Shown in pieces: positions 33,433-45,210 of a stretch of DNA of 64,000 bases (its first letter is position 1; the number at the start of each line of letters is the position of its first letter). Under the pieces are notes generated by a model, which was not told where the DNA came from, ran no database searches, and saw only the letters and a program-made list of their open reading frames with translations. Location: assembly GCA_927407015.1 (NCBI GenBank), contig CAKMJT010000024.1:1-64000 (forward strand), written 5' to 3'. The stretch comes from an uncultured Proteiniphilum sp. (GTDB lineage Bacteria; Bacteroidota; Bacteroidia; Bacteroidales; Dysgonomonadaceae). A program made the position numbers and the translations under genes.

Positions 33433-35109
33433 ATGAACGATATGACAGATAATGTAAAAGTGCACTGCGTGAACACGGGTGAGCAAAAGGATGTTCCCGT
33501 CGGTTCATCACTGGAGGAGTTAATTAGCGTGTTTGGCTTCACATCGCCTTATTTAATTGCCAACGCAAAAGTAAACAACAGAACCGAGTCGCTCGCTTAC
33601 CGTATTTATCGGCCCAAGACAATCGAGTATGTCGATCTGAGCAATTCGTCTGCCATGCGAACCTATGTGCGGTCGCTCTGTTTTATCCTGGCAAAAGCGG
33701 TGGATGATTTGTTGCCTAACGCTTTGATGTATATTGAACATGCTGTATCAAGAGGGTACTATTTTCAGATTGAATCAGATCTGCCCGTGGGAAAACCGGA
33801 GCTGGATGCCATCCTCAAACGGATGCAGGAGATCGTGAAGGCCGATATCCCTTTCGTACAGGTGGAAGAGGAAACAGCGAAAGTGGTGAAGCTGTTCAGG
33901 GAAAAAGGAATGGAAGACAAAGCACTGTTGCTGGAGACCTCCGATTTGCTCTATGCCCGCTATTCGATTCTGGATGAGTATATCGACTATTTCTACGGCT
34001 GCCTGACACCCTCTACCGGTTATATTACTATGTTTGATATTCAGCCACACAATGGTGGTTATCTGCTACGGGTGCCCAACCGTACGAACCCGGTGGAGCT
34101 GGAACCCGAAGTGCAGCAGGAGAAACTGCTCAATGTCTACCGCGAACACCTGAAGTTTCTGAAGATTAGCCGGCTCGATAACGTGGGAGACCTGAACAAA
34201 GCGAAGCGGGAGGATCGCATGTCGGAAGTGATCCAGGTGGCGGAAGCCTACCAGGCAAATCAGATTGCCAATATAGCCGAAGAGATCACCCGCGGATTTG
34301 AAAAAGGTGTACGCGTAGTGCTGATATCCGGTCCCTCTTCCTCGGGGAAGACCACCTTCCGGAAACGACTCGAGGTACAGCTGATGGTGAATATGCTGAA
34401 GCCCATAGGCATCTCCCTCGACAATTACTTCGTGGAGAGAGACCAAACGCCGCTCGATGAGCAGGGAGGGATGGATTATGAATCACTGTATTCCCTTGAT
34501 CTTCTGTTGTTTGAACAACATATAATCCGGTTGATGCAGGGCGAAGAGGTTGAATTACCGGTCTATAATTTTTTAACCGGAAAAAGGGAGTACAAAAAAA
34601 ACTACCTGAAGATGTCGGACAACAGCATCCTCATCGTGGAGGGCATTCACGGACTGAACCCGGAGCTGACCGCGCATATACCTTCCGAGAAGAAATTCCT
34701 GGTCTATGTCTCGGCACTGACCTCTATTTCGCTGGACGACCATAACTGGATACCTGCTTCCGACAACCGTCTGCTGCGGCGTATCGTACGCGATTACCGT
34801 TACCGCGGCTATTCCGCAGAACAAACTATCTCCCGCTGGGACAGTGTGCGGCGCGGTGAAGAGAAATGGATCTTCCCCTACCAGGAGAATGCCGATGTGA
34901 TGTTCAATTCAGCCATGATCTATGAGCTGGCAGCCATCCGCCGTCATGCCGAACCTATACTCATGCAGGTACCCCGTACCGCTCCTGAATATTCAGAAGC
35001 ATACCGGCTGCTGAAATTCCTGAGTTATTTCAGTTATATTACCGACCGGGAGCTGCCACCTACCTCGCTGTTACGTGAGTTTCTGGGTGGGAGCAGTTTC
35101 CGTTATTAA
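33433..35109 (+). CDS. Nucleoside (uridine-type) kinase with TGS and synthetase-editing-like N-terminal domains
   Basis: The protein has 558 residues. The N-terminal 60 residues resemble a TGS domain (VHCVNTGEQKDVPVGSSLEE), followed by a region like the second additional domain of threonyl-tRNA synthetase (HAVSRGYYFQIE). A P-loop kinase follows from about residue 290: ISGPSSSGKTTF (Walker A), DNYFVERDQTPLDEQGGMDY and the EGIHGLNP block of the phosphoribulokinase/uridine kinase superfamily. It probably phosphorylates uridine or a related nucleoside. ATG 33442 is an alternative start. It lies 6 nt before mnmE. Confidence 0.85.
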   Translation: MNDMTDNVKVHCVNTGEQKDVPVGSSLEELISVFGFTSPYLIANAKVNNRTESLAYRIYRPKTIEYVDLSNSSAMRTYVRSLCFILAKAVDDLLPNALMYIEHAVSRGYYFQIESDLPVGKPELDAILKRMQEIVKADIPFVQVEEETAKVVKLFREKGMEDKALLLETSDLLYARYSILDEYIDYFYGCLTPSTGYITMFDIQPHNGGYLLRVPNRTNPVELEPEVQQEKLLNVYREHLKFLKISRLDNVGDLNKAKREDRMSEVIQVAEAYQANQIANIAEEITRGFEKGVRVVLISGPSSSGKTTFRKRLEVQLMVNMLKPIGISLDNYFVERDQTPLDEQGGMDYESLYSLDLLLFEQHIIRLMQGEEVELPVYNFLTGKREYKKNYLKMSDNSILIVEGIHGLNPELTAHIPSEKKFLVYVSALTSISLDDHNWIPASDNRLLRRIVRDYRYRGYSAEQTISRWDSVRRGEEKWIFPYQENADVMFNSAMIYELAAIRRHAEPILMQVPRTAPEYSEAYRLLKFLSYFSYITDRELPPTSLLREFLGGSSFRY

Positions 35110-35115
35110 ACAGTG

Positions 35116-36501
35116 ATGTCCGATATCATTTGTGCCATATCAACCCCTCCCGGTATGGGAGCCATCGCCGTGATCCGTGTCTCGGGCGGGGGGAGCGCTG
35201 CCCTGACGGATCATGTCTTCCATTCACCTTCAGGGAAAAAATTGACCAATGCAGCCGCCAACACGGTTCATTTCGGGAGAATACACTCCGGCGGAGAAGT
35301 GCTCGATGAGGTGCTGGTAACTGTCTTCCGTGCCCCTCATTCATTCACGGGGGAGGAGAGCGTGGAGATATCCTGTCATGGCTCAGTCTTTATTCAGCAA
35401 CGGCTGATGGAGCTGCTATTTGCCAACGGAGCACGGATGGCCCAGGCGGGTGAGTTCACACGTCGTGCTTTCCGCAACGGTAAGTTCGATCTAAGTCAGG
35501 CCGAAGCGGTGGCCGATCTGATTGCCTCCTCTTCACGCGCTGCTCACCGGGTGGCGATGAACCAGATGCGGGGCGGTTTCGCCGGTAAACTCACCCAGTT
35601 ACGTGACAAGCTGTTACAGTTCGTCTCTCTGATTGAGCTGGAGCTCGATTTCTCGGAAGAGGATGTGGAGTTTGCCAACCGGGAGAAACTGTATGAGCTG
35701 ACACATGAGATAGAGGAGGAGATTGTCCGGCTGACCGACTCCTTCCGCCTGGGGAATGCCATCAAGAATGGTATCCCGGTAGCTATCATCGGTGAGACCA
35801 ATGCCGGCAAATCGACTCTGCTGAACCTGCTGCTCAATGAAGAACGGGCCATTGTCAGCGACATCCACGGTACCACACGTGATGTGATTGAAGATGTGGT
35901 GAACATGGAGGGTGTCACCTTCCGCTTTATCGATACGGCAGGAATACGGCAAACCACAGATACCATTGAAACACTTGGCATTGAGCGTACGTACCGTAAG
36001 ATTGAACAGGCCTCCATCGTGTTGTGGATGATTGACCTGACCACACCACGAGATAAGATGGAGGTGCTAGCTGCATCCCTGATTCCGAGAATGAAAGAGA
36101 AACATCTCATCCTGCTCTTCAACAAAGCCGATCTGTTACCGGAAAAGGAACGTGCAGCAATGGATCATTTTCTCCCGGAGGTGGAAGGCGACCGGCTCTT
36201 TATATCGGCCAAACAACAATATAACACCGCACAGTTGCAGCAATTGCTGGTGCAGGCGGCTGCCATCCCTGCTATCAGCGAAGAAGATGTGGTCGTGACC
36301 AACCTGCGTCATTATGAAGCCCTGAACAAGGCCCTCGAAGCCATCCGTCGTGTAGTGGAGGGACTGGAGACCGGCATCACCCACGATTTCATCTCACAGG
36401 ATATCCGCGAATGCATGTTCTACCTCGGTGAGATCACGGGTCATATCTCTACCGACGAAATCCTGGGTAATATCTTCAGCAAGTTCTGTATCGGAAAGTA
36501 A
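35116..36501 (+). CDS. mnmE: tRNA uridine-5-carboxymethylaminomethyl(34) synthesis GTPase MnmE
   Basis: MnmE works with MnmG to modify the wobble uridine of several tRNAs. From ATG 35116 it is 461 residues: an N-terminal formyl-THF-binding domain (MSDIICAISTPPGMGAIAVI), a helical domain, and the inserted G domain with GETNAGKST (P-loop), DTAGIRQT and NKADLL. The C-terminus is FCIGK with the conserved Cys. A GTG one codon earlier at 35113 is less likely. Its last 18 bases form the left attachment repeat of the downstream island, yet the coding sequence and stop are preserved. Confidence 0.96.
   Translation: MSDIICAISTPPGMGAIAVIRVSGGGSAALTDHVFHSPSGKKLTNAAANTVHFGRIHSGGEVLDEVLVTVFRAPHSFTGEESVEISCHGSVFIQQRLMELLFANGARMAQAGEFTRRAFRNGKFDLSQAEAVADLIASSSRAAHRVAMNQMRGGFAGKLTQLRDKLLQFVSLIELELDFSEEDVEFANREKLYELTHEIEEEIVRLTDSFRLGNAIKNGIPVAIIGETNAGKSTLLNLLLNEERAIVSDIHGTTRDVIEDVVNMEGVTFRFIDTAGIRQTTDTIETLGIERTYRKIEQASIVLWMIDLTTPRDKMEVLAASLIPRMKEKHLILLFNKADLLPEKERAAMDHFLPEVEGDRLFISAKQQYNTAQLQQLLVQAAAIPAISEEDVVVTNLRHYEALNKALEAIRRVVEGLETGITHDFISQDIRECMFYLGEITGHISTDEILGNIFSKFCIGK
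36484..36501. repeat. attL: 18-bp direct repeat at the 3' end of mnmE
   Basis: TTCTGTATCGGAAAGTAA encodes the last residues and stop of MnmE. It recurs with one mismatch at 45193-45210 beyond the integrase-bearing region, which is the layout expected after site-specific integration. Confidence 0.85.
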
Positions 36502-36543
36502 CGCCACAAAACAAGTAAACAATAAAAAAGCAACAAATCACTT

Positions 36544-36569
36544 AAAGCCCTGTAATTGGGCCTTTTTTT
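36544..36569 (+). terminator. Terminator just after mnmE
   Basis: AAAGCCC, a 7-nt loop and GGGCC followed by seven T residues form a small GC stem with a U-run, 43 nt after the mnmE stop. It lies inside the left repeat and so belongs to the element. Confidence 0.65.
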
Positions 36570-36616
36570 GTGGATAAAAAGCTGTTTTTTTTTGCGTTAT
36601 TATTTGTTTATTCAAT

Positions 36617-36680
36617 ATATATTTGTACCTTTGTTGTACCTCAATTCTGAAAAGTGTTTTTTTTGCTGTTATTTGTACCT
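36617..36680. promoter_or_regulatory. ATTTGTACC repeats and promoter-like sites at the left end of the element
   Basis: ATTTGTACCT occurs at 36621-36630 and 36671-36680, with a shorter TTGTACCT copy near 36634. The same word, ATTTGTACC, is found near the other end at 45146. Such end-located direct repeats could be arm-type integrase sites. TATATTTG (36617-36624) and TACCTTTG (36627-36634) also fit the -7 promoter consensus. Confidence 0.4.
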
Positions 36681-36699
36681 CGAATGGTTTACATAGTTT

Positions 36700-36739
36700 A
36701 CAGAATGGAACACTTTAGTACAGAATTGAACACTTTAGG
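36700..36739. repeat. Tandem 20-bp repeats upstream of the first island gene
   Basis: ACAGAATGGAACACTTTAGT (36700-36719) is followed directly by a copy with two differences (36720-36739). The words TCAATTCTG and AAAGTGTT, reverse complements of parts of the unit, occur at 36641-36658. The placement 30 nt before the HTH gene suggests an operator. Confidence 0.6.
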
Positions 36740-36768
36740 GTGAGATAACAAATGATGTTATAAATATA

Positions 36769-37365
36769 ATGAGTAGTAACATAAGAGTACAGCGGATTTG
36801 TCAGTATTGTGGAACGGAATTTACAGCCCGAACCACAACAACCTTGTATTGTTCCCACCGTTGTAACAGTACAGCATACAAGCAAAAGATTAGAGCCGGG
36901 AAGGTGCAAAAGTCAAACACCGAAACCAAGCAGATAAAAACAAAGCCCATTGAGGAACTGAAAACCAAAGAATTTTTGACCGTTACGGACGTTTCGAAAT
37001 TAATTAACTGTTCCCGGCAAAACGTTTACAAGCTGATCAACACGGGAAAGCTGAAAGCAACAAATGTACTGGAAAGGAAAACTATTATAAGACGTTCAGA
37101 CCTTGACAAAATATTTAATGAGGTACCAGAAATTGAAATGATACCTGAACAACAAAAACGGGACTTGTACGAATGGAGACAGTCAGGGGCTTATGATATT
37201 TCCGACTGTTACACACTTAAAGAAATACAAAGCAAGTACGGTATTTCAGAAACAGCCTTGCAAAACCTTATCGAACGGGAAAGCATAGCGAAAATAAAAA
37301 AGGGTTGGTATGCTTATGTACCAAAAAACATAATAGATGATCTATTGAAGCAAAAAAAAAAGTAA
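36769..37365 (+). CDS. Zinc-ribbon plus helix-turn-helix DNA-binding protein
   Basis: This 198-residue protein starts with a Cys4-type motif (ICQYCGTEFTARTTTTLYCS, then HRCNS) that should bind zinc. It continues with an excisionase-type winged HTH (FLTVTDVSKLINCSRQNVYK, about residues 64-83, then RRSDLDKIF) and a second HTH-like region (YTLKEIQSKYGISETALQNL). It is probably an element regulator or directionality factor. It is the first gene after the left end and precedes the integrase by 130 nt of repeats. Its last codons lie within the first copy of a 73-bp tandem duplication. Confidence 0.75.
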   Translation: MSSNIRVQRICQYCGTEFTARTTTTLYCSHRCNSTAYKQKIRAGKVQKSNTETKQIKTKPIEELKTKEFLTVTDVSKLINCSRQNVYKLINTGKLKATNVLERKTIIRRSDLDKIFNEVPEIEMIPEQQKRDLYEWRQSGAYDISDCYTLKEIQSKYGISETALQNLIERESIAKIKKGWYAYVPKNIIDDLLKQKKK

Positions 37366-37477
37366 TGTTTTGATGGTAACATTAGTAACTTTAGTAACTG
37401 ATCGAATAGATGATCTATTGAAGCAAAAAAAAAAGTAATGTTTTAATGGTAACATTAGTAACTTTAGTAACTGATCG
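37332..37477. repeat. 73-bp tandem duplication with GTAAC iterons
   Basis: Copy 1 (37332-37404) contains the last codons and stop of the preceding HTH gene; copy 2 (37405-37477) differs by one base (G to A). Each copy carries three GTAAC words at 9-bp spacing: 37376, 37385, 37394 and 37449, 37458, 37467. Two more at 37499 and 37508 overlap the integrase start. The regular array resembles iterons or a regulator binding array. Confidence 0.85.
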
Positions 37478-37495
37478 AATAAAAAAGCAAAAGTA

Positions 37496-38665
37496 ATGGT
37501 AACAAGAGTAACATTAAGACAAAAGAAAATTAGTAAAGGACGGCAAAGCCTTTATTTGGATTTTTACCCGGCTATTGCACACCCGGAAACAGGCAAACCC
37601 ACACGAAGGGAATTTTTAGGGCTGTATATTATTGTCAAGGCAAAAATACCTTTTGACAAATACCACAATACTGAAACCTTGAAAATTGCCGAAAGCATAA
37701 GACAGAAACGGGAAAACATTTTGAATAAACCTGAAATTTACACGGGTTTTGAAAAGGAGCAGTTAAGAATGAAGGAACAGGGCGAACAAAGCTTTATTGA
37801 ATACTTCAGGGAATTAGCCAATAAACGAAAAGAGAGTAATTACGATAACTGGATTTCAACACTTAATTACCTCGAAGCGTTTACCAACGGGAAATTAAAT
37901 TTTAATGATCTTTTTATCGAAACAAAAGACGGTTTGAAACCGGCACCCTTTTTTGAGAATTTCAAAAAATACTTACTTGAAACCAAAAGCATACGGAGCA
38001 ATAAAACAACCCTTTCACAAAATTCAGCTGTTTCTTATTTTTTAAAAGTCAAAGCAGCATTGAAACAAGCGTACAAAGATGGAATGATACAAACCGACCT
38101 GAACGCTAAAGTATCACCAATTCCAAAGCAAGAAACAAGACGGGAATATTTAACCCTTGAGGAACTTAATAAACTTGTAAAAACGCCTTGCAACAACCCA
38201 TTATTGAAACGTGCAGCCCTATTTTCAGCCCTTACAGGGTTACGGTTTTCTGATATTGAAAAAATGGTTTGGGGCGAAATTGAATACATAGAGGGGCAAG
38301 GGTATTTTCTGAATTTCACACAAAAGAAAACAAAAGGCGTTGAGGATTTACCCATTTCCGAACAGGCATACAGTTTATTGGGTGAGCCGAATGAACCAAC
38401 CGCCAAAGTTTTTGAGGGGCTGAAGTATTCAGCATACCAAAATAAACACCTCTTTCAATGGATTGGAGCAGCCGGAATAACAAAAGATATAACCTTTCAT
38501 TGTTTCCGGCATACATACGCAACCTTGCAGCTATCTGAAGGTACGGATATTTACACGGTTTCAAAGATGCTGGGACACCGGGACCTAAAAACCACACAAA
38601 TTTATGCAAAGATTGTGAGCAAAACCAAGCGGGAAGCGACAAATAAAATTAATTTAGATATGTAA
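37496..38665 (+). CDS. Tyrosine-type site-specific integrase of the island
   Basis: This 389-residue recombinase has an N-terminal arm-binding region (RVTLRQKKISKGRQSLYLDF), a SAM-like core-binding domain (about 95-200) and the catalytic domain. Catalytic residues are visible in ALTGLRFSDIEKM (Arg), HCFRHTYATLQL (His-x-x-Arg), LGHRDLKTTQIYAKI (His and Tyr nucleophile). The type is the phage-integrase family common in Bacteroidota mobile elements. It presumably recombines the 18-bp sites at 36484 and 45193. Its first codons (MVTRVT) contain two GTAAC iterons. Confidence 0.94.
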   Translation: MVTRVTLRQKKISKGRQSLYLDFYPAIAHPETGKPTRREFLGLYIIVKAKIPFDKYHNTETLKIAESIRQKRENILNKPEIYTGFEKEQLRMKEQGEQSFIEYFRELANKRKESNYDNWISTLNYLEAFTNGKLNFNDLFIETKDGLKPAPFFENFKKYLLETKSIRSNKTTLSQNSAVSYFLKVKAALKQAYKDGMIQTDLNAKVSPIPKQETRREYLTLEELNKLVKTPCNNPLLKRAALFSALTGLRFSDIEKMVWGEIEYIEGQGYFLNFTQKKTKGVEDLPISEQAYSLLGEPNEPTAKVFEGLKYSAYQNKHLFQWIGAAGITKDITFHCFRHTYATLQLSEGTDIYTVSKMLGHRDLKTTQIYAKIVSKTKREATNKINLDM

Positions 38666-38686
38666 TAAACTCAAAATAAAATAACG

Positions 38687-39676
38687 ATGATAACACCGAA
38701 AATTAAAGCATTATTTCAATTCATTGATTTTTTACATTCAAACATTGAAAATTTCAACCAGTACGAAAATGAAATAAACGAACTTCGCTTATTGGGTGAG
38801 GAACGTGAAAAAGTGTACAAAAAAAAGAACTTTGCTGAAAAACAGAAATACGATAGAATACAGCTGCAAATAGGGGGCAAAGTTAAAGTTATTCAGGATA
38901 ATATCGTACAGCCAATAAGAGACAAAGCTAATGAATTAAGCATTTGCAGCCCTGAAGCATACAAAACCGAAACCCTTTGGAACTGGAACAGTGCCGAAAT
39001 AATTGGACTTAAAGAGAAAGTCAGTAACGAGGATTTACCAGAAATATTCAACCACAAAAACAAATACATTGAATACCGGACAAAGACAAAAGTGTCTATG
39101 CTTTTTGGATTACCTCTTTTCTTTGATCATTTAGACGAAGTATTAAAAGAACTATTCAGTTACTTCAATGAAACAGAACATAACGAATTTGAAGCTTTTG
39201 AAACCAAAGAAATATTTTCAAACAGTATAGCGGAAGCGCTTGAGTTACAAAAGCAAGGGTACAAAGTTGCTGTACCATTGAATTTATATAACCCGGTGAA
39301 GGAGCAACAAGGGAGCAATACAGAGCCGTTGCCACCTCAAACAGATACAAAGAAGGTGAATACTAAGACACCCAAAGAAAAGACGTTGAGCGGCCTTATT
39401 ACACACCAAAACAGCCTTGAAATTGTTGAGGGTATAAAAATTCAATACAAGAACATAAAAGGCAAACGGTTAAAATTGTTGTTGTTGGCTTTGCAGGAAT
39501 TAGGTTTATTTCCAAAAGAAAGGATTGCACAAAAGTTTTACGATTGTTGCAAAGCTGAATTTAGTTGGGATATAGCAACTTACCAAGCAATGAATGGTTA
39601 TCAATATAATGAACACACCGACAAAACAGAGTTGATAGAAATGAAACAATACCTTAAAAGTCTTATGAACCCATAA
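38687..39676 (+). CDS. Unknown island protein, 329 residues
   Basis: I do not recognise the family. It is soluble, highly charged and rich in Lys and Glu, with no signal peptide or membrane segment. There is a helical N-terminal half (IDFLHSNIENFNQYENEINE), a polar linker around residues 205-235 (EQQGSNTEPLPPQTDTKKVN), and a C-terminal domain containing KGKRLKLLLLALQELGL and YQAMNGYQYNEHTDK that seems independently folded. It follows the integrase by 21 nt and ends just before the phased operator at 39683. Its position between integration and replication genes suggests an element-specific function, not cargo. Confidence 0.65.
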   Translation: MITPKIKALFQFIDFLHSNIENFNQYENEINELRLLGEEREKVYKKKNFAEKQKYDRIQLQIGGKVKVIQDNIVQPIRDKANELSICSPEAYKTETLWNWNSAEIIGLKEKVSNEDLPEIFNHKNKYIEYRTKTKVSMLFGLPLFFDHLDEVLKELFSYFNETEHNEFEAFETKEIFSNSIAEALELQKQGYKVAVPLNLYNPVKEQQGSNTEPLPPQTDTKKVNTKTPKEKTLSGLITHQNSLEIVEGIKIQYKNIKGKRLKLLLLALQELGLFPKERIAQKFYDCCKAEFSWDIATYQAMNGYQYNEHTDKTELIEMKQYLKSLMNP

Positions 39677-39682
39677 TAAACC

Positions 39683-39724
39683 ACTTGCACAGACTTGTAT
39701 TTACTTGTTTACAAGTTTATACAA
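39683..39724. promoter_or_regulatory. Phased ACTTG repeats and 30-bp dyad (candidate operator)
   Basis: ACTTG occurs at 39683, 39693 and 39703, exactly one helical turn apart. The segment 39695-39724 is a dyad in which TTGTAT and ACTTGT are mirrored by ACAAGT and ATACAA, each separated by TT. It precedes the promoter and start of the HTH-primase operon. Confidence 0.6.
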
Positions 39725-39757
39725 CTGAATATCAATAAGATAAATAAGTAAAAAGCC

Positions 39758-39765
39758 TATTTTTG
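39758..39765 (+). promoter_or_regulatory. Probable -7 element of the HTH-primase operon
   Basis: TATTTTTG matches TAnnTTTG and lies 33 nt before the ATG at 39799. The upstream dyad (39695-39724) covers the -33 region, so its ligand would be placed to repress or activate. Confidence 0.45.
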
Positions 39766-39798
39766 CAATAGTTATTTCACAAATAAATTATTGTAAAA

Positions 39799-40158
39799 AT
39801 GGAACAGAACTTAACATTTGAACAGTTACCCCAAGCGGTAACAATGCTAACAAAAGAAGTTAGCGAATTGAAACGCCTGTTTATCGAAAAACAGGAACAG
39901 GAACCCACCGACCAGCCGGAACAGCTTTTAACCATACAACAGGCAGCTGAATTTTTAAGCCTTTCCGTTCCTACACTTTACACGAAAGTATCAAAAAGCG
40001 AATTACCCGTAATGAAGCGAGGTAAACGCCTGTACTTTTCCCGTACCGAATTAATGAACTACATTAAAGAAGGGCGTAAAAAGTCAAATGCTGAAATTGA
40101 AGCTGAAGCCGACGCGTATTTATCCGACAAAAAGAAAGGGCTGAACAATGGAAAATAA
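39799..40158 (+). CDS. Small excisionase-type HTH protein
   Basis: This 119-residue protein has an HTH_17 (MerR-like/excisionase) domain: LLTIQQAAEFLSLSVPTLYT and ELPVMKRGKRLYFSRTELMN, residues about 45-90. A coiled N-terminus (LPQAVTMLTKEVSELKRL) could mediate dimerisation. The gene overlaps the primase-helicase start by 11 nt, indicating translational coupling. It may be the excisionase or a replication regulator acting at the neighbouring dyad. Confidence 0.82.
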   Translation: MEQNLTFEQLPQAVTMLTKEVSELKRLFIEKQEQEPTDQPEQLLTIQQAAEFLSLSVPTLYTKVSKSELPVMKRGKRLYFSRTELMNYIKEGRKKSNAEIEAEADAYLSDKKKGLNNGK

Positions 40159-41707
40159 CCAACTGAACAGCCCTGAAGCCTTTGTAAGTGAAGGACAATA
40201 CAAAGATACCAATATTCAGGATAATATCAAATTAAACGTTGGGTTTGATGACCTTATTAACCCGGCTACCATCCAAAACCACGTTGAAGAACTAAAAAAG
40301 AAAAGCGAAGCAGCAACCCCACACGCTGAAATTTTGCAACAACTAATTGCACAATTTGAAACATTGGACTTTGAAGCGTTGGCGAACCCACACGGTGCCG
40401 AAGGGTTTAAACTGAACACCAAACATTTTTTGGTATTAGCAATTGAAAACGCCTTACTGTTTGCAGAAAATAACCGCTGGGGATTGTGCAAAAACAATGA
40501 TTTCATTTACCTGTACAATGGCACTTACTGGAAGGAAATAGACAAAGAAACGTTTCAAAAGTTTTTGGGTGAAGCAGCTGAAAAAATGGGCGTTGCTAAA
40601 TTTTCAGCACGTTACTACCAATTTAGGGAGCAGCTGTTTAAACAATTCCTTGCAACGGCATATTTACCTACACCCGAAAACAAAAAAGATACGGTACTGA
40701 TCAACTTGCAAAACGGAACGTTTGAAATAAGCCCACAGGGGACAAAATTAAGACCGTTTGACAGTACGGACTTTATGACCTACCAGCTACCATTTGAGTA
40801 CAACCCACAGGCAAAGGCACCGATATTTGAAGCGTATTTGAACAGGGTAATACCGGACAAAGAACGCCAAAGGGTACTTTCTGAATATTTAGGCTATGTA
40901 TTTATTAAAAACGGGTTTGAAGGGCTGAAGCTTGAAAAGGCGTTGCTATTATACGGAACCGGACAAAACGGGAAGTCAGTATTTTTTGATATTGTTACTT
41001 CATTGTTGGGGGGTGAAAATATTAGTAATTATTCCTTGCAAAGCTTGACAGAGGAAAAAGGTTTTTACCGGGCGAAAATTGCAAATAAACTTGTAAACTA
41101 TGCAAGTGAAATAAACGGAAAACTGGAAACAAGTTTATTCAAAGCAATGGTTTCCGGCGAACCCGTTGAAGCTTGTTTGAAGTATGGGCAACCCTTTTCA
41201 ATGACAAATTATGCCAAGTTTATTTTCAATTGTAACGAGTTACCAAAAGACGTTGAGCATACAGCTGCGTACTTCAGACGGTTTTTAATTATTCCTTTTG
41301 ATGTAACAATAACGGAACAGGAAAAAGACACCGAACTGGCAAAGAAAATTGTTAAATCTGAACTTTCAGGCGTATTCAATTGGGTACTGGAAGGGTTAAA
41401 CAGGTTACTTGAACAAAAGGAATTTTCGAAATGTGAAGCAGCCAAACAGGCACTTGAGCAATACAAAATTGAGAGTAACAGCGTACAGATGTTTTTGAAT
41501 GAAAACGAATACAAAAGCAGCCCTACAAATTATAAGCTGATCAAAGACCTGTACCCGGAATACAAGAAATTTTGTGAGGAAGACGGAGCAAGAGCATTTC
41601 AAAAGAAAAATTTCACAAAGCAGTTGCGAGGGCTGGGCTTTATTGTTGATAGGGTTGCACAAAACCAATTGGCTGTATTTGTTGAACGGGACGGGTACTA
41701 TTTTTGA
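40148..41707 (+). CDS. P4/D5-family primase-helicase (SF3 helicase)
   Basis: This 519-residue protein has the D5-N type region (GLCKNNDFIYLYNGTYWKEI through FMTYQLPFEYNP) followed by an SF3 helicase core: Walker A LLYGTGQNGKSVFFDIVTSL near residue 280, YASEINGKLETSLFKAMVSG (B region) and KFIFNCNELP (sensor C). A winged-helix C-terminus follows. Such proteins start replication of satellite phages like P4 and of plasmids. Together with the next gene it forms the replication module, so this element probably replicates after excision. Confidence 0.9.
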   Translation: MENNQLNSPEAFVSEGQYKDTNIQDNIKLNVGFDDLINPATIQNHVEELKKKSEAATPHAEILQQLIAQFETLDFEALANPHGAEGFKLNTKHFLVLAIENALLFAENNRWGLCKNNDFIYLYNGTYWKEIDKETFQKFLGEAAEKMGVAKFSARYYQFREQLFKQFLATAYLPTPENKKDTVLINLQNGTFEISPQGTKLRPFDSTDFMTYQLPFEYNPQAKAPIFEAYLNRVIPDKERQRVLSEYLGYVFIKNGFEGLKLEKALLLYGTGQNGKSVFFDIVTSLLGGENISNYSLQSLTEEKGFYRAKIANKLVNYASEINGKLETSLFKAMVSGEPVEACLKYGQPFSMTNYAKFIFNCNELPKDVEHTAAYFRRFLIIPFDVTITEQEKDTELAKKIVKSELSGVFNWVLEGLNRLLEQKEFSKCEAAKQALEQYKIESNSVQMFLNENEYKSSPTNYKLIKDLYPEYKKFCEEDGARAFQKKNFTKQLRGLGFIVDRVAQNQLAVFVERDGYYF

Positions 41708-41725
41708 ATATTAAAATTGTATGTA

Positions 41726-43273
41726 ATGGGAAACAGTAATAACGAATACAGATATAAATTTGAAAAAGGCAGCCGGAAGCACTTTTGCCCGGAGTGTAAC
41801 AAAAAACGTTTTGTTCGGTATATTGATACCAAAACGGGCGAATATTTGCCGGAGCAGTACGGGCGTTGCGACCGTTCAGACAATTGCGGTTATGATCTTA
41901 ACCCGTATTCAGATGGTTATGCAAAAATGGTTTGGGAACGGGAGCAGAAAGTTACTGAAGTTACTAAAGTTACTGTTCCAAAACAAAAATATTTTTACAC
42001 TAAGCCCAAGCCGAAGCCCGAACAGGAACCCGTTTTTTTTGACTTTGATACGTTCAAACAGACGTTGAGCAATTACGATAAAAACGTATTTATTCAAAAC
42101 TTACTGTTCCGGGTGCAATTCCCGTTTGAAGCTGATGAAATTACAAGGGTTATTCAGCTGTATAGATTGGGGACGGTTGCAAATGGTTACAGAGCAGGGG
42201 CAAACACCTTTCCTTTCATTGACGAAACCGGCAATGTAAGGGCTATACAAGTAAAACAATTTGATGAAGCTAACCACACCACAGGCACCGACTTTTTACA
42301 TTCAATCATAGAGAAACACCACACCCGGAACAACAAGCCGTTGCCCGTATGGTTGGAAAAATACATACAGCAAGAAAAACGAATTACCTGTTTATTTGGC
42401 GATCACCTTTTGAGCAAATACCCTAACAACCCCGTTGCTTTAGTTGAAGCACCAAAGACGGCTGTTTATGGTACATTGTATTTTGGATTGCCTGATACAC
42501 CTGAAAGCCTTATTTGGTTGGCTGTTTACAATAAGAGCAGTTTTTCATTTGATAAGCTGAAAGCATTGAAGGGGCGGTTTGTGTATGTATTCCCGGACTT
42601 ATCAAAAGACGGGAACACGTTCCGTGAATGGCAAACCAAAGCCAAAGGATATGAAGCACGACTACCCGGCACCCGGTTTGTTTTTTCCGACTTACTGGAG
42701 CAGTTGGCACCGGAAGCGGATAAAACAAAAGGAAACGACCTTGCAGACTTTTTAATAAAATTAGATTGGCGAAAATTCAGAAAACGGGAAATAACGGAAG
42801 AGCAACCCGAACCCGAAAAAGTTACTGAAGTTACTAAAGTTACCAATGAAACAAACATTATTTTTTCTGACAATGAAAAAATACAAGAAACACCGGTACG
42901 GGTACCAGGAACACACGAAACCGATTTTATTGAATGGTTACAGCAAGGTAATAAACCGTTGAATTATGGAAAGGAAGCTAAACAATACGATGGGAACAAA
43001 GATTGTTCAAATGATAACTGGAGCAATAACAGGGGAAAAGGAAAGACACAACCGCAAAGCTGGAACGATGAGATTACAGAACTTGAAACATATTTTGCGA
43101 ACATTGAACTACCAACCCAACCCGTGAAGCTGAACGAAAGCAGTACAATAACGGATTGTTCCTTATTTATGGAAACCCACTTTGCCACCGTGAAAAGAAA
43201 TAACGGGAATAAAACATTTTTACCATACTTGAACAGGTTACAGCAATTAAAACAAATGCTAATAACAACCTGA
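41726..43273 (+). CDS. Zinc-finger/toprim-like replication protein (DUF6371-like)
   Basis: This 515-residue protein begins with a Cys4 motif (CPECNKKRFVRY, then CDRSDNCGY) like the zinc finger of DNA primases. The middle region (FPFIDETGNVRAIQVKQFDE, LVEAPKTAVYGTLYFG, GRFVYVFPDLSKDGNTFREW) resembles the DUF6371/PG0870-type toprim-like fold. The tail is polar and disordered. Two copies of VTEVTKVT, encoded by GTTACT repeats, contain inverted GTAAC words at 41951 and 42821. I chose ATG 41726 over the TTG at 41717. It probably works with the upstream helicase in primer synthesis. Confidence 0.75.
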   Translation: MGNSNNEYRYKFEKGSRKHFCPECNKKRFVRYIDTKTGEYLPEQYGRCDRSDNCGYDLNPYSDGYAKMVWEREQKVTEVTKVTVPKQKYFYTKPKPKPEQEPVFFDFDTFKQTLSNYDKNVFIQNLLFRVQFPFEADEITRVIQLYRLGTVANGYRAGANTFPFIDETGNVRAIQVKQFDEANHTTGTDFLHSIIEKHHTRNNKPLPVWLEKYIQQEKRITCLFGDHLLSKYPNNPVALVEAPKTAVYGTLYFGLPDTPESLIWLAVYNKSSFSFDKLKALKGRFVYVFPDLSKDGNTFREWQTKAKGYEARLPGTRFVFSDLLEQLAPEADKTKGNDLADFLIKLDWRKFRKREITEEQPEPEKVTEVTKVTNETNIIFSDNEKIQETPVRVPGTHETDFIEWLQQGNKPLNYGKEAKQYDGNKDCSNDNWSNNRGKGKTQPQSWNDEITELETYFANIELPTQPVKLNESSTITDCSLFMETHFATVKRNNGNKTFLPYLNRLQQLKQMLITT

Positions 43274-43320
43274 TAAAACCTAACATTTTAAAAAGGAATA
43301 TTAAACTAAAGTTGAGTAAT

Positions 43321-43668
43321 ATGTTACAAAAAATAATCATAAGCAGAGCCATAAACAAAGATGGCACAGATACAGAGTTAAAAGATATTGTCGGATGGTA
43401 CACACCGATTGCAGTATTTAAGCTTGAGCCGAAAAGTAAATATTACATTCTGATATTTCATGATTTGGGTGAGATGTTTCCAAAGAAGTTATTTGCACAG
43501 GTAAAGATATCCTCTTTCAATAGGATAATAAAGGAGCGTAACAGAGTTGATTTGTGGAGAGGTGCATTATATCGCGGTTATAGGGTTAAGTACACAGGCT
43601 GTAAAACATTTATTCCTGATACGCAACAAACAATTACAGTTGAATTTGGCAGATCACTGTTTAAGTAA
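43321..43668 (+). CDS. Unknown small island protein
   Basis: The protein has 115 residues from ATG 43321 (a TTG at 43312 is in the same frame). It is basic and probably beta-rich, with several aromatic residues (LWRGALYRGYRVKYTGCKTF). No signal peptide, membrane helix or recognised motif is present. It lies between the replication module and the TerS-like gene on the same strand. Confidence 0.55.
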   Translation: MLQKIIISRAINKDGTDTELKDIVGWYTPIAVFKLEPKSKYYILIFHDLGEMFPKKLFAQVKISSFNRIIKERNRVDLWRGALYRGYRVKYTGCKTFIPDTQQTITVEFGRSLFK

Positions 43669-43706
43669 CAATATGTAACAGTAATAACATTTTAAAATTA
43701 TAGATT

Positions 43707-44030
43707 ATGGAAAAGAAATTTCAAAACAAAGAATTTGCATCAATGGCTGGGAAGGTGAGCAGCAGGGAAGGGGTTCCGAACAAGACCACCAACGAAGTGA
43801 GAAAAGCGTTTCAGCTATTAGTTGAAAATAATTTGCCACAGATGCAGGTTGATTTAGATTCATTAGAGCCGAAAGAGAGAATTAAATTCATGCTGGATAT
43901 GGCAAAGTTTATTTTACCACAGCTTCAATCAATCAGCATTGATGATCTGAGAGAGAAAGAAGTACAAGGATTTAATGTTTTGACTATTAACTTAAAAAAT
44001 GGAAGCGATGACAGAAGTAACAGTATTTAG
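43707..44030 (+). CDS. Phage-type small protein resembling terminase-small-subunit-associated proteins
   Basis: This 107-residue protein has the pattern GVPNKTTNEVRKAFQLLVEN followed by an acidic helix and KFMLDMAKFILPQLQSISI. This resembles short proteins found beside terminase genes in Bacteroidota phages (KGTPNKTT... ILPKL type). The resemblance is from memory of the pattern and is not proven. If right, the island may redirect phage packaging, as phage satellites with their own TerS do. The gene overlaps the next small membrane ORF. Confidence 0.5.
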   Translation: MEKKFQNKEFASMAGKVSSREGVPNKTTNEVRKAFQLLVENNLPQMQVDLDSLEPKERIKFMLDMAKFILPQLQSISIDDLREKEVQGFNVLTINLKNGSDDRSNSI

Positions 44031-44175
44031 TATTATTCTTTTAGTTATTTACTTGACAGCAGCGAGCCTTTTTGTCTATTGTATAGCTATTCTCATAAGA
44101 AGTGATATAACAGCCCACAGGGCAGGGAAAGGGGCAAATAACAAGCTTAACGAGGTGAGAAATAAAGTTGAATGA
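44008..44175 (+). CDS. Small single-pass membrane protein
   Basis: From ATG 44008 (or ATG 43999) the frame encodes 55 residues with one hydrophobic helix (VFSIILLVIYLTAASLFVYC) and a basic, polar tail (SDITAHRAGKGANNKLNEVR). It overlaps the preceding gene's 3' end and ends 1 nt before the next ATG, so three genes are packed as one operon. Its size and shape are holin-like or toxin-like, but no family is recognised. Confidence 0.5.
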   Translation: MTEVTVFSIILLVIYLTAASLFVYCIAILIRSDITAHRAGKGANNKLNEVRNKVE

Positions 44176-44176
44176 T

Positions 44177-44596
44177 ATGGAACAGATAGAAATTAAAACA
44201 CCGATGGACTTGTTTCTCTTTGTAGATAAATTCTTTGACAGAATGAGTGAGGAGGATAAAGAGCAATTAATGAGTGAGGTGCTGGGCAGTAGCTGGGTGG
44301 TTGTATTTTCCAATATGGGAGTATATAAAATAAGCAAGGCAGATTTAAAATTTGAGTTGGGGGCTATCTTAATGGATGACTTTAACAAAAATGTTTTTTA
44401 TGCATTGATACCACCATCAGAGTTTCTCAATGATAAGTTACTGGAACCACTACAAAGCAGACCGACCACACCCGAACAGCTTGAATACATTCGATGGTTA
44501 AGAAGTTGTAAGGATGGAATACGTTTCTCTAATAGGGTTTACAATGAAGCCGATTTTCCCGATCACATTAAAAAATATCTGATGATTGATGATTGA
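44177..44596 (+). CDS. Unknown island protein, 139 residues
   Basis: The product is soluble, acidic and has no recognised motif. Features are an amphipathic N-terminus (PMDLFLFVDKFFDRMSEEDK), a central strand-rich part (WVVVFSNMGVYKISKADLKF) and a C-terminal block (PTTPEQLEYIRWLRSCKDGI). It is the last gene of the island's small-gene operon, followed by a terminator at 44643. Its position is typical for accessory or defence cargo, but function is unknown. Confidence 0.55.
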   Translation: MEQIEIKTPMDLFLFVDKFFDRMSEEDKEQLMSEVLGSSWVVVFSNMGVYKISKADLKFELGAILMDDFNKNVFYALIPPSEFLNDKLLEPLQSRPTTPEQLEYIRWLRSCKDGIRFSNRVYNEADFPDHIKKYLMIDD

Positions 44597-44642
44597 TGAT
44601 TGATTACTGATAATTGACCGGTAGGAGTTTATTTACACTATA

Positions 44643-44672
44643 AAAAAGGGCGGGCGGTTGTTCGTTCTTTTT
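44643..44672 (+). terminator. Rho-independent terminator at the end of the island operon
   Basis: AAAAAGGGCG (44643-44652) pairs with CGTTCTTTTT (44663-44672) using two G:U pairs, with a 10-nt loop and a T-run. It lies 47 nt after the last island gene. Confidence 0.7.
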
Positions 44673-44919
44673 ATATATGCAGGGAGTTGAAAAATTTCCC
44701 GTTTTCGGAAACCATAAAAAAGGAGTAAGTAAAAGAGTTGAATAATTTTGCCGGTTAAAAAACAGGCTATTCTAAGCCCTTCAGAGCGACGATTATTTCT
44801 TTATGGACATCGCATCGGGAAGAAGTGGTAAAGCGAACACAGGCGACACGGCGAAGCGCGGTGGGTGGAGAAGAGGCATGTGTAACATACAGCATGTAAT
44901 TTTATGGACATTTGTGCCG

Positions 44920-44967
44920 ATGGGTGATCTCACATATACGGAATTCCGTACATGTATTTTTACCCAT
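44920..44967. repeat. Nested symmetrical palindrome near the right end of the island
   Basis: An inner near-palindrome of 24 bp (44932-44955) has the perfect core TACGGAATTCCGTA. It is enclosed by symmetric 6-nt spacers and an outer 6-bp stem ATGGGT/ACCCAT (44920-44925, 44962-44967). The surrounding gap 44597-45261 has no convincing gene. This could be a replication origin, recombination or relaxase-type site. Confidence 0.65.
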
Positions 44968-45145
44968 GCAACTAATAACACCAAGCTCAAAGCTCAAAGC
45001 CGAAAGCATACCACCGGAAAAATTAAGAGCGTTTCTATTGAGTTGAAAAGGTACCCGGAAAGTTATTTACATTTCAGGTAAGACACTTTTACAAACAGCC
45101 CTAATTTAGCCCGATAGTATTAATTTCCATACACAAATGTATCCT

Positions 45146-45155
45146 ATTTGTACCC
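45146..45155. promoter_or_regulatory. Right-end ATTTGTACC word (possible integrase arm site)
   Basis: ATTTGTACCC lies 38 nt inside the right attachment repeat and repeats the word found two times near the left end (36621, 36671), in the same orientation. Confidence 0.35.
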
Positions 45156-45192
45156 TTAAATCGTAACTAATTGATAAACAGTCAAAGTTACA

Positions 45193-45210
45193 TTCTGTAT
45201 CGGTAAGTAA
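45193..45210. repeat. attR: right 18-bp direct repeat
   Basis: TTCTGTATCGGTAAGTAA matches the mnmE end at 36484-36501 in 17 of 18 positions. Normal chromosomal genes resume 52 nt later. Confidence 0.85.

Follow-up and report, generated by a model that had tools for sequence, protein, structure and literature searches.

Introduction

Much is known about phage satellites of Firmicutes, Enterobacterales and Vibrio, among which those called phage-inducible chromosomal islands (PICIs) carry a packaging gene of the small terminase subunit (TerS) type. A 50 kb island of Riemerella is reportedly guided by a phage integrase. Here, we describe an integrative mobile element in a 64,000-nucleotide stretch of DNA from an uncultured Proteiniphilum sp. 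of the phylum Bacteroidota (contig CAKMJT010000024.1, positions 1 to 64,000; the whole stretch is referred to below as the window). The element (36502–45210) is site-specific, uses a tyrosine integrase and lies behind the 3' end of the host gene mnmE. We propose, with a probability of about one half, that it is a phage-satellite-like element on a backbone of the Tn4555 type, which would be packaged by a helper phage.

The nonreplicating Bacteroides unit NBU1 is said to integrate at a Leu-tRNA gene, a different target from the mnmE of the elements described here. The backbone of Tn4555 and of integrative mobilizable elements (IMEs) of the NBU type (int, xis, ATPase, DUF6371) is present in the window, also by comparison with pBUN2 (locus L117), the ATPase of the window being of the D5 kind. 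By gene order, judged without aligning Tn4555 itself, the succession of a gene before the integrase, the integrase, a gene after it, an excisionase, an ATPase and a DUF6371 protein resembles the list for Tn4555 in the accessible part of PMC13183296. The 26 complete mnmE elements analysed below differ in having no detected relaxase and a single strict target, in contrast to the lower specificity of Tn4555, in which deletion of the gene upstream of int alters the insertion pattern (PMC5704250, in the part available).

Phage-inducible chromosomal minimalist islands (PICMIs) combine an integrase, an AlpA regulator and a primase, average 6.7 kb in Vibrionaceae and use one fixed site (fis); complete PICMIs are reported in Vibrio only (PMC10803314, as far as that source was available). 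The likeness is one of architecture, the window having an integrase, HTH_17 regulators, a P4-family primase and a TerS-like gene within 8.7 kb, whereas host phylum, genes and target all differ from those of PICMIs and PICIs. By this analogy its life style may resemble that of PICMIs. In likeness to the P4 satellite, the primase-helicase of the window scores above the cut-off of TIGR01613 ('primase, P4 family'); relatives of this enzyme also occur widely in phages of the ordinary kind (1,493 records), so that the element cannot be classified from it. The titles and abstracts searched contained no report of mnmE islands or of phage satellites in Bacteroidota (most subscription journals and supplements lay outside the search), and neither PMC12324425 nor PMC12884075, in their accessible parts, concerns this family of elements.

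The island and its family

The last 18 bases of mnmE (TTCTGTATCGGAAAGTAA) recur with one mismatch at the right end of the island (TTCTGTATCGGTAAGTAA), as the initial annotation of this DNA had noticed. That annotation had also raised the possibility that the word is common elsewhere in the genome; it is not, since a genome-wide count (3.18 Mb in 63 contigs) at up to two mismatches gives these two places only (two forward, none reverse). The reversed pattern gave no forward and one reverse match genome-wide, and the shuffled window gave a mean of 0.10 core matches at up to three mismatches. The direct repeats at the two ends enclose a block with a GC content of 33.9–41.0% in 1 kb windows, compared with 49.5–53.7% to the left (five windows, 33500–36499); to the right GC is 40–47%, which makes this boundary less sharp than the left one. 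All ten main open reading frames (ORFs) of the block are on the plus strand, the integrase gene adjoins one att site and the domain matches (Table 1) agree with the earlier description of an AT-rich, plus-strand block with a tyrosine integrase and replication genes.

A scan of genome contigs with the window integrase gave 80 loci, many of them 70–80% identical, which carry Bacteroidota titles apart from L052 and from L112, a partial and distant match in Verrucomicrobiota (L and G numbers are the locus and genome labels of this analysis). The expectation that the integrase would be found beside mnmE in other genomes is borne out: at 67 of the 80 loci the integrase is preceded by mnmE on the same strand at a distance of up to 2.5 kb, with four further loci having a contig start less than 0.7 kb from the integrase and nine being without mnmE. 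The one island known at the outset is a member of a large family. When more distant loci and the window are included, 83 of 114 classified loci are at mnmE, nine are contig edges and 22 are elsewhere, a class that takes in contigs L119 and L120; two loci appear under two labels each (L099/L180 and L023/L197).

Integrases just 36–46% identical to that of the window also target mnmE. In a tree of 108 integrases (a quick tree with 36 of its 104 inner branches open and L023 omitted), the mnmE label is clustered, requiring 14 changes compared with a shuffled mean of 24.4 (0 of 500 shuffles as low), and occupies more than one clade. Related integrases follow the conserved dnaK 3' end at L118, L181, L182 and L186 (dnaK is annotated in L118 and was read by eye in the others), and all four fall in one well supported group of five integrases. 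Single cases occur behind miaA (L094), aroE (L188) and eno (L025), the gene names again being read by eye.

Nine of ten whole genomes of carriers contain two core copies, 7.0–49.8 kb apart, one of the nine having a third match elsewhere; the tenth shows one copy because its right core begins TTATG. The copies at mnmE are 49.8 kb apart in Larkinella knui (L097; G504:C9:700100-749925) and 13.7 kb apart in Runella zeae (L076; G503:C10:116132-129836), and these wide spacings may mean that the elements are larger or that several are adjacent. In G004 (C95, C175) and G024 (C16, C4), one contig has a near-complete mnmE and another has an additional mnmE 3' end next to an integrase, which could reflect mixed strains or a gene end that was carried along.

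Core variation and arm-type words

From 29 candidates for a right repeat with at most three mismatches, the window included, 26 elements with both ends were kept, L054 (core pair 3.6 kb apart), L080 and L088 being dropped; more diverged right cores are missed as a result of this limit. The 26 elements measure 6,190–12,457 bp (median 8,332). Mismatches between left and right cores fall at third codon positions of the FCIGK-stop reading in 34 of 35 cases (p = 1.4e-15), and the remaining one is TAA versus TGA. Right cores read FCIGK-stop in 23 of the 26 elements and LCIGK-stop in three. The simplest reading of these sequences would be that the core is swapped with the host mnmE end at every insertion and is kept under selection as a true gene end. 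Such a third-codon rule would explain how a protein-coding gene can be used throughout a phylum as a portable docking site. Within the interiors of the 26 elements (434,632 bases, both strands) no 18-mer came within three mismatches of the element's own left core; shuffled cores gave eight matches in 520 trials on one strand.

Words of sequence TTGTACC, often in tandem with 11 bp spacing, are present near each end in 25 of the 26 elements, with counts of 56 and 34 in the two 300 bp ends compared with 0.027 per 300 bp internally. By analogy with the arm-binding integrases described in PMC8138268 (available in part), these words are candidate arm sites for an integrase of that kind.

Excision, empty site and movement between hosts

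An excised circular form with a single core was seen for relatives, not for the window's element. Each of the IMG/VR contigs L120 (7,810 bp), L199 (7,164 bp) and L208 (6,180 bp) ends in an exact terminal repeat (127, 114 and 127 bp, respectively) and contains one core and no mnmE match, as circles should; L119 (6,683 bp) lacks a terminal repeat and is permuted in the same circular way. The circles belong to the IMG datasets 3300043395, 3300042868, 3300036399 and 3300007540. L212, L217, L235 and L240, which have terminal repeats and no core, were left out of the circle count for the mnmE family. The circles came to light through alignments; as single queries against viral contigs, neither the window integrase nor o8 gave a match.

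The empty site that the initial annotation had suggested looking for in related genomes was found for one family member. In G558 (L321), a genus relative of Maribacter thermophilus HT7-2 (L049) with a 97% identical MnmE, the mnmE stop codon is followed directly by sequence resembling that beyond the right core of M. thermophilus, and the joined M. thermophilus flanks (150 bases of mnmE plus the sequence after attR) align through the G558 junction at 83% over query positions 1–259. Three single-core circles and one empty site are compatible with excision and insertion. For the window's species no comparable right flank was found behind the mnmE of relatives: none of four genes of the window right flank was found in the stretch of at most 1.5 kb retrieved behind mnmE in those genus and order relatives whose mnmE was retrieved, and the flank is well matched in one relative only, on a contig other than that of mnmE. 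Homology between Epilithonimonas and a relative starts inside the right core, with no mnmE on its left, and for Cyclobacterium there was no comparable flank (three weak matches were left unopened).

Across the 2,926 pairs formed by 77 loci for which the two proteins are available, integrase identity and MnmE identity barely correlate (Spearman coefficient 0.12). Integrases are more than 85% identical in 118 pairs; in the 25 pairs listed they are 86–96% identical, with MnmEs 43–56% identical (94% versus 49% for L034/L035, L034 being from Pedobacter sp. BS3, and 95% versus 50% for L045/L048, for example). Binning errors do not account for this mismatch because mnmE shares the contig of the integrase. 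One listed pair joins Flavobacterium (L043) and Chitinophaga (L061), which we take to belong to different orders. These comparisons suggest that mnmE elements have been transferred between distant hosts, repeatedly.

Gene content and mode of transfer

The integrase and an HTH_17 gene are present in all 26 elements, a helix-turn-helix/zinc-finger (HTH/Zn) gene in 25, DUF6371 in 23 and a helicase of either of two kinds in 20; less constant are orf3 (15), C3 (14), C5 (13), C8 (9), which is the family of o8 in the window, and C9 (4). The window ORFs and the family thus hold genes for integration, regulation and replication and no structural genes, head and tail families being absent from the best 25 of 49 PHROG families for 49 cargo proteins. 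Either C8 (DUF5681-like) or C9 (TerS-like) occurs in 12 of the 26.

Gene context in two cases suggests a packaging role for C8. At L299 the C8 homologue overlaps the gene for the terminase large subunit (TerL) by four bases, and on L213, a phage contig with tape-measure and head genes, it lies three small ORFs ahead of TerL and follows an HTH_17, D5 and DUF6371 module of the same type. In 32 viral loci with DUF6371 and TerL, picked by a DUF6371 scan and including some near-copies, TerL is 0–6 kb downstream on the same strand in 29, which is the place of C8 and C9 in the islands. From the context in L299 and L213 we infer that o8, and C8 in general, is a candidate TerS-like packaging protein.

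The genome of the window contains two further elements with other integrases, whose o8 copies are 63% and 69% identical over the alignment (65% and 73% by BLAST). One is a second island (L293:5579-12251, contig C13) between recQ-like and L13/S9-like ribosomal protein genes (names by eye), with a 24 bp end repeat (92%), a different integrase, an 829-residue primase/helicase and homologues of o7, o8 and o10 in the same order as in the window. The other (L294:1-6300, contig C53, at a contig edge) has an integrase, an HTH protein, a helicase, DUF6371 and the o8 copy. A packaging cassette shared by different chassis within a single host would be expected of satellites that depend on the same helper.

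In the cycle that we propose, the tyrosine integrase would recombine the mnmE-end core of the element with the host's own mnmE end, a step that the sequences strongly support, and since the core is copied from that end mnmE would be intact after insertion. Excision would give a circle in which a single core is flanked on either side by TTGTACC arms, as in the circular contigs of relatives. To judge by the protein families, the circle is probably copied by the element's own P4/D5-type helicase and DUF6371 protein. Exit would most likely be in helper-phage particles, steered by the TerS-like protein (o8 here, C9 in some others). Re-insertion in distant Bacteroidota, possible because the FCIGK-stop end of MnmE is conserved, would each time leave or take a synonymous variant of the 18 bases.

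Several observations weigh against packaging by a helper phage. TerL was found by profile in one (L299) of nine genome regions opened for C8 matches. The o8 homologue of Bacteroides phage BF1-TP2 (33%, 8e-7) has regulator and integrase genes as neighbours, and the annotation shows no terminase less than 7 kb away. The o8 model is a helical hairpin of low confidence (predicted local distance difference test score, pLDDT, 62.5), and o7 and o10 match no phage record. The presence of circles in IMG/VR does not show that they were in virions. For C9, the match to a PHROG TerS family is weak (1.2e-3), phage records gave no match and the related genes in genomes, as read by eye, mostly stand alone. 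Fold and PDB sequence searches with C9 gave nothing significant: its model has a pLDDT of 62.9, the best Foldseek E value (0.047) is to a sigma-factor complex, 2ao9 (phBC6A51) follows at 0.7–1.5 and the best E value of the PDB sequence search is 0.12. TerL was not found in the window's genome in a search run without a positive control, and no helper was found there. The search for an empty site was also negative in the window's species, in Epilithonimonas and in Cyclobacterium. To these points are added the relaxases of related elements and the 14 of 26 elements that lack both C8 and C9.

Relaxase homologues occur in cousins with the same backbone. In pBUN2, HTH, integrase, HTH_17, helicase and DUF6371 genes are followed by MobC and a relaxase, and homologues are also found in L114 and at the mnmE loci L104 and L185, the latter in the window's own genus. 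The window element could accordingly be an IME of the iOriT type, with an origin of transfer (oriT) and a Tn4555-like backbone and no relaxase of its own, for which a resident integrative and conjugative element or plasmid would supply the relaxase and the mating pore. Relaxase-less IMEs are a recognised class (PMC11389934, in the part available), and the Tn4555 list in PMC13183296 (TnpA, integrase, TnpC, excisionase, AAA ATPase and DUF6371) fits such a backbone. We nevertheless regard this route as unlikely. The place of MobC and relaxase in the cousins is occupied by C8, C9 or C3 in many mnmE elements, and no relaxase was found in the 26 complete ones (one relaxase query; best 25 of 38 Pfam families for the 49 cargo proteins, weakest E value 4.7e-7; no search aimed at oriT), nor among the Pfam matches of the window ORFs.

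The 14 elements without C8 and C9 comprise eight with C3 alone and six with none of the three. The latter, together with the apparently damaged L102 and L103 (split ORFs) and elements of 6.3–6.5 kb (L057, L062) that hold little besides integration and replication genes, would be expected if these were relics or passengers without dedicated transfer, which would reach new cells through generalized transduction or natural transformation and then be inserted by their integrase. This seems improbable to us, as most elements have long ORFs, and the single-core circles and the repeated wide transfer suggest that they are active. The PICMI is moreover a minimal satellite with the core genes int, alpA and prim and no terS homologue (PMC10803314, as available), so that a missing terS is compatible with a satellite.

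Extended from the window to the family, the satellite proposal becomes more tentative, at somewhat less than even odds. It would then describe one family of phage satellites, spread throughout the Bacteroidota, whose members dock at the mnmE end through synonymous FCIGK-stop cores, keep the host gene functional and cross from order to order, with phage-derived terminase genes replacing the relaxase on a Tn4555-type backbone, one chassis having been switched between conjugation and phage packaging. If true, this would provide many candidates whose att sites are known and a testable packaging gene, as well as a case of one chassis that uses either conjugation or phage packaging.

Defence was considered as the main cargo and rejected: the best 25 of 108 defence families for the 49 cargo proteins are restriction or methyltransferase models (including PglX and DrmMI), with one protein each. 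The mnmE elements L068 and L077 seem to hold type IIG and PvuII-like restriction-modification genes, the assignment to loci being by eye.

Relation to SGI1

The att sequences of MGIVchHai6 (attL TTCTGTATTGGGAAGTAA, attR TTCTGTATTGGCAAGTAA; 47,437 bp; PMC4958241, available in part) bear out the statement of the initial annotation that SGI1-type islands use the same 18 bp target at the end of mnmE (trmE/thdF). Besides this target, the imperfect repeats and the same broad integrase subgroup are shared, whereas size and gene content differ. Kinship with SGI1 as an element was rejected, the target being all that the window has in common with it; SGI1 backbone genes (TraG/TraH/TraN, mobilization genes and Rep_3) are absent from the Pfam and NCBIfam matches of the window ORFs.

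The further claim that the integrase is unrelated to that of SGI1, and hence that the shared target reflects convergence, is not supported. In the accessible part of PMC8138268, SGI1 integrases are placed with Bacteroidetes integrases in the subgroup IntCTnDOT, and convergence is therefore not established. Common descent of the integrases, a question separate from that of the transfer route, would account for this shared subgroup, for a core of the same 18 bases and for the depth of mnmE targeting among Bacteroidota integrases (to 36–46% identity with that of the window). We hold it to be doubtful all the same, since IntCTnDOT is large (the second largest subgroup of its group; PMC8138268, same part), the target shifts among relatives (to the dnaK, miaA and aroE 3' ends) and the integrase tree was built without any SGI1 integrase. 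An SGI1-type integrase was sought through E. coli genomes with an interrupted mnmE junction, and the four regions opened (L303–L306) held other DNA. In 784 of 5,374 matched E. coli genomes no place covers 80% of the mnmE–tnaC junction query, indicating that this gap is often interrupted.

Features of the window island

Table 1. Features of the island and its target gene (positions in the window)
Feature	Position	Strand	Basis
mnmE, intact host gene; target is its 3' end	35113..36501	+	462-aa ORF ending FCIGK-stop
attL core, last 18 bases of mnmE	36484..36501	+	Repeat match
Two tandem arm-type words TTGTACC, 11 bp spacing	36623..36640	+	Offsets +121, +132
Third arm-type word TTGTACC	36673..36679	+	Offset +171
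Zn-finger-like and HTH_17/excisionase-domain protein, in the Tn4555 tnpA position	36769..37365	+	PF12728 5.5e-17; phrog_66 6.2e-12; TIGR01764 31.2 bits (cut-off 28.8)
Tyrosine integrase, 389 aa	37496..38665	+	PF00589 5.2e-18; PF13102 2.4e-13; phrog_1 3.5e-45
orf3, C-terminus DUF6043-like	38687..39676	+	PF19509 1.6e-6
HTH_17 excisionase-type protein	39799..40158	+	PF12728 1.4e-12; TIGR01764 36.1 bits (cut-off 28.8)
P4-family/D5 primase-helicase	40148..41707	+	TIGR01613 1.5e-54, 184.9 bits (cut-off 108.7); PF08706; D5_N, DUF5906, Pox_D5
Zn_ribbon_16, DUF6371 and DUF6965 protein, primase-like	41717..43273	+	PF19898 1.9e-36
o7, no assigned family	43312..43668	+	54% identical ORF in the second island of the same genome (L293)
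o8, DUF5681-like family C8, candidate small terminase subunit	43707..44030	+	Gene context of family members (L299, L213); two further elements of this genome carry copies
o9, 58-aa ORF	43999..44175	+	ORF only
o10, no assigned family	44168..44596	+	43% identical ORF in L293
attR-side arm-type word TTGTACC	45148..45154	+	Offset -45
attR core, likewise reading FCIGK-stop	45193..45210	+	Repeat match

The right end of the island (44597–45192) has a sole ORF of 92 aa, which is doubtful. Directly upstream of the integrase, at the end of the HTH/Zn gene, two tandem 73 bp copies are 99% identical (37332–37477). Iteron-like 9 bp repeats (AGTAACTTT / AAAGTTACT) are present upstream of the integrase (37371–37399 and 37444–37472) and, inverted, within the DUF6371 gene (41949–41975 and 42819–42845); these are possibly a replication origin or control site.

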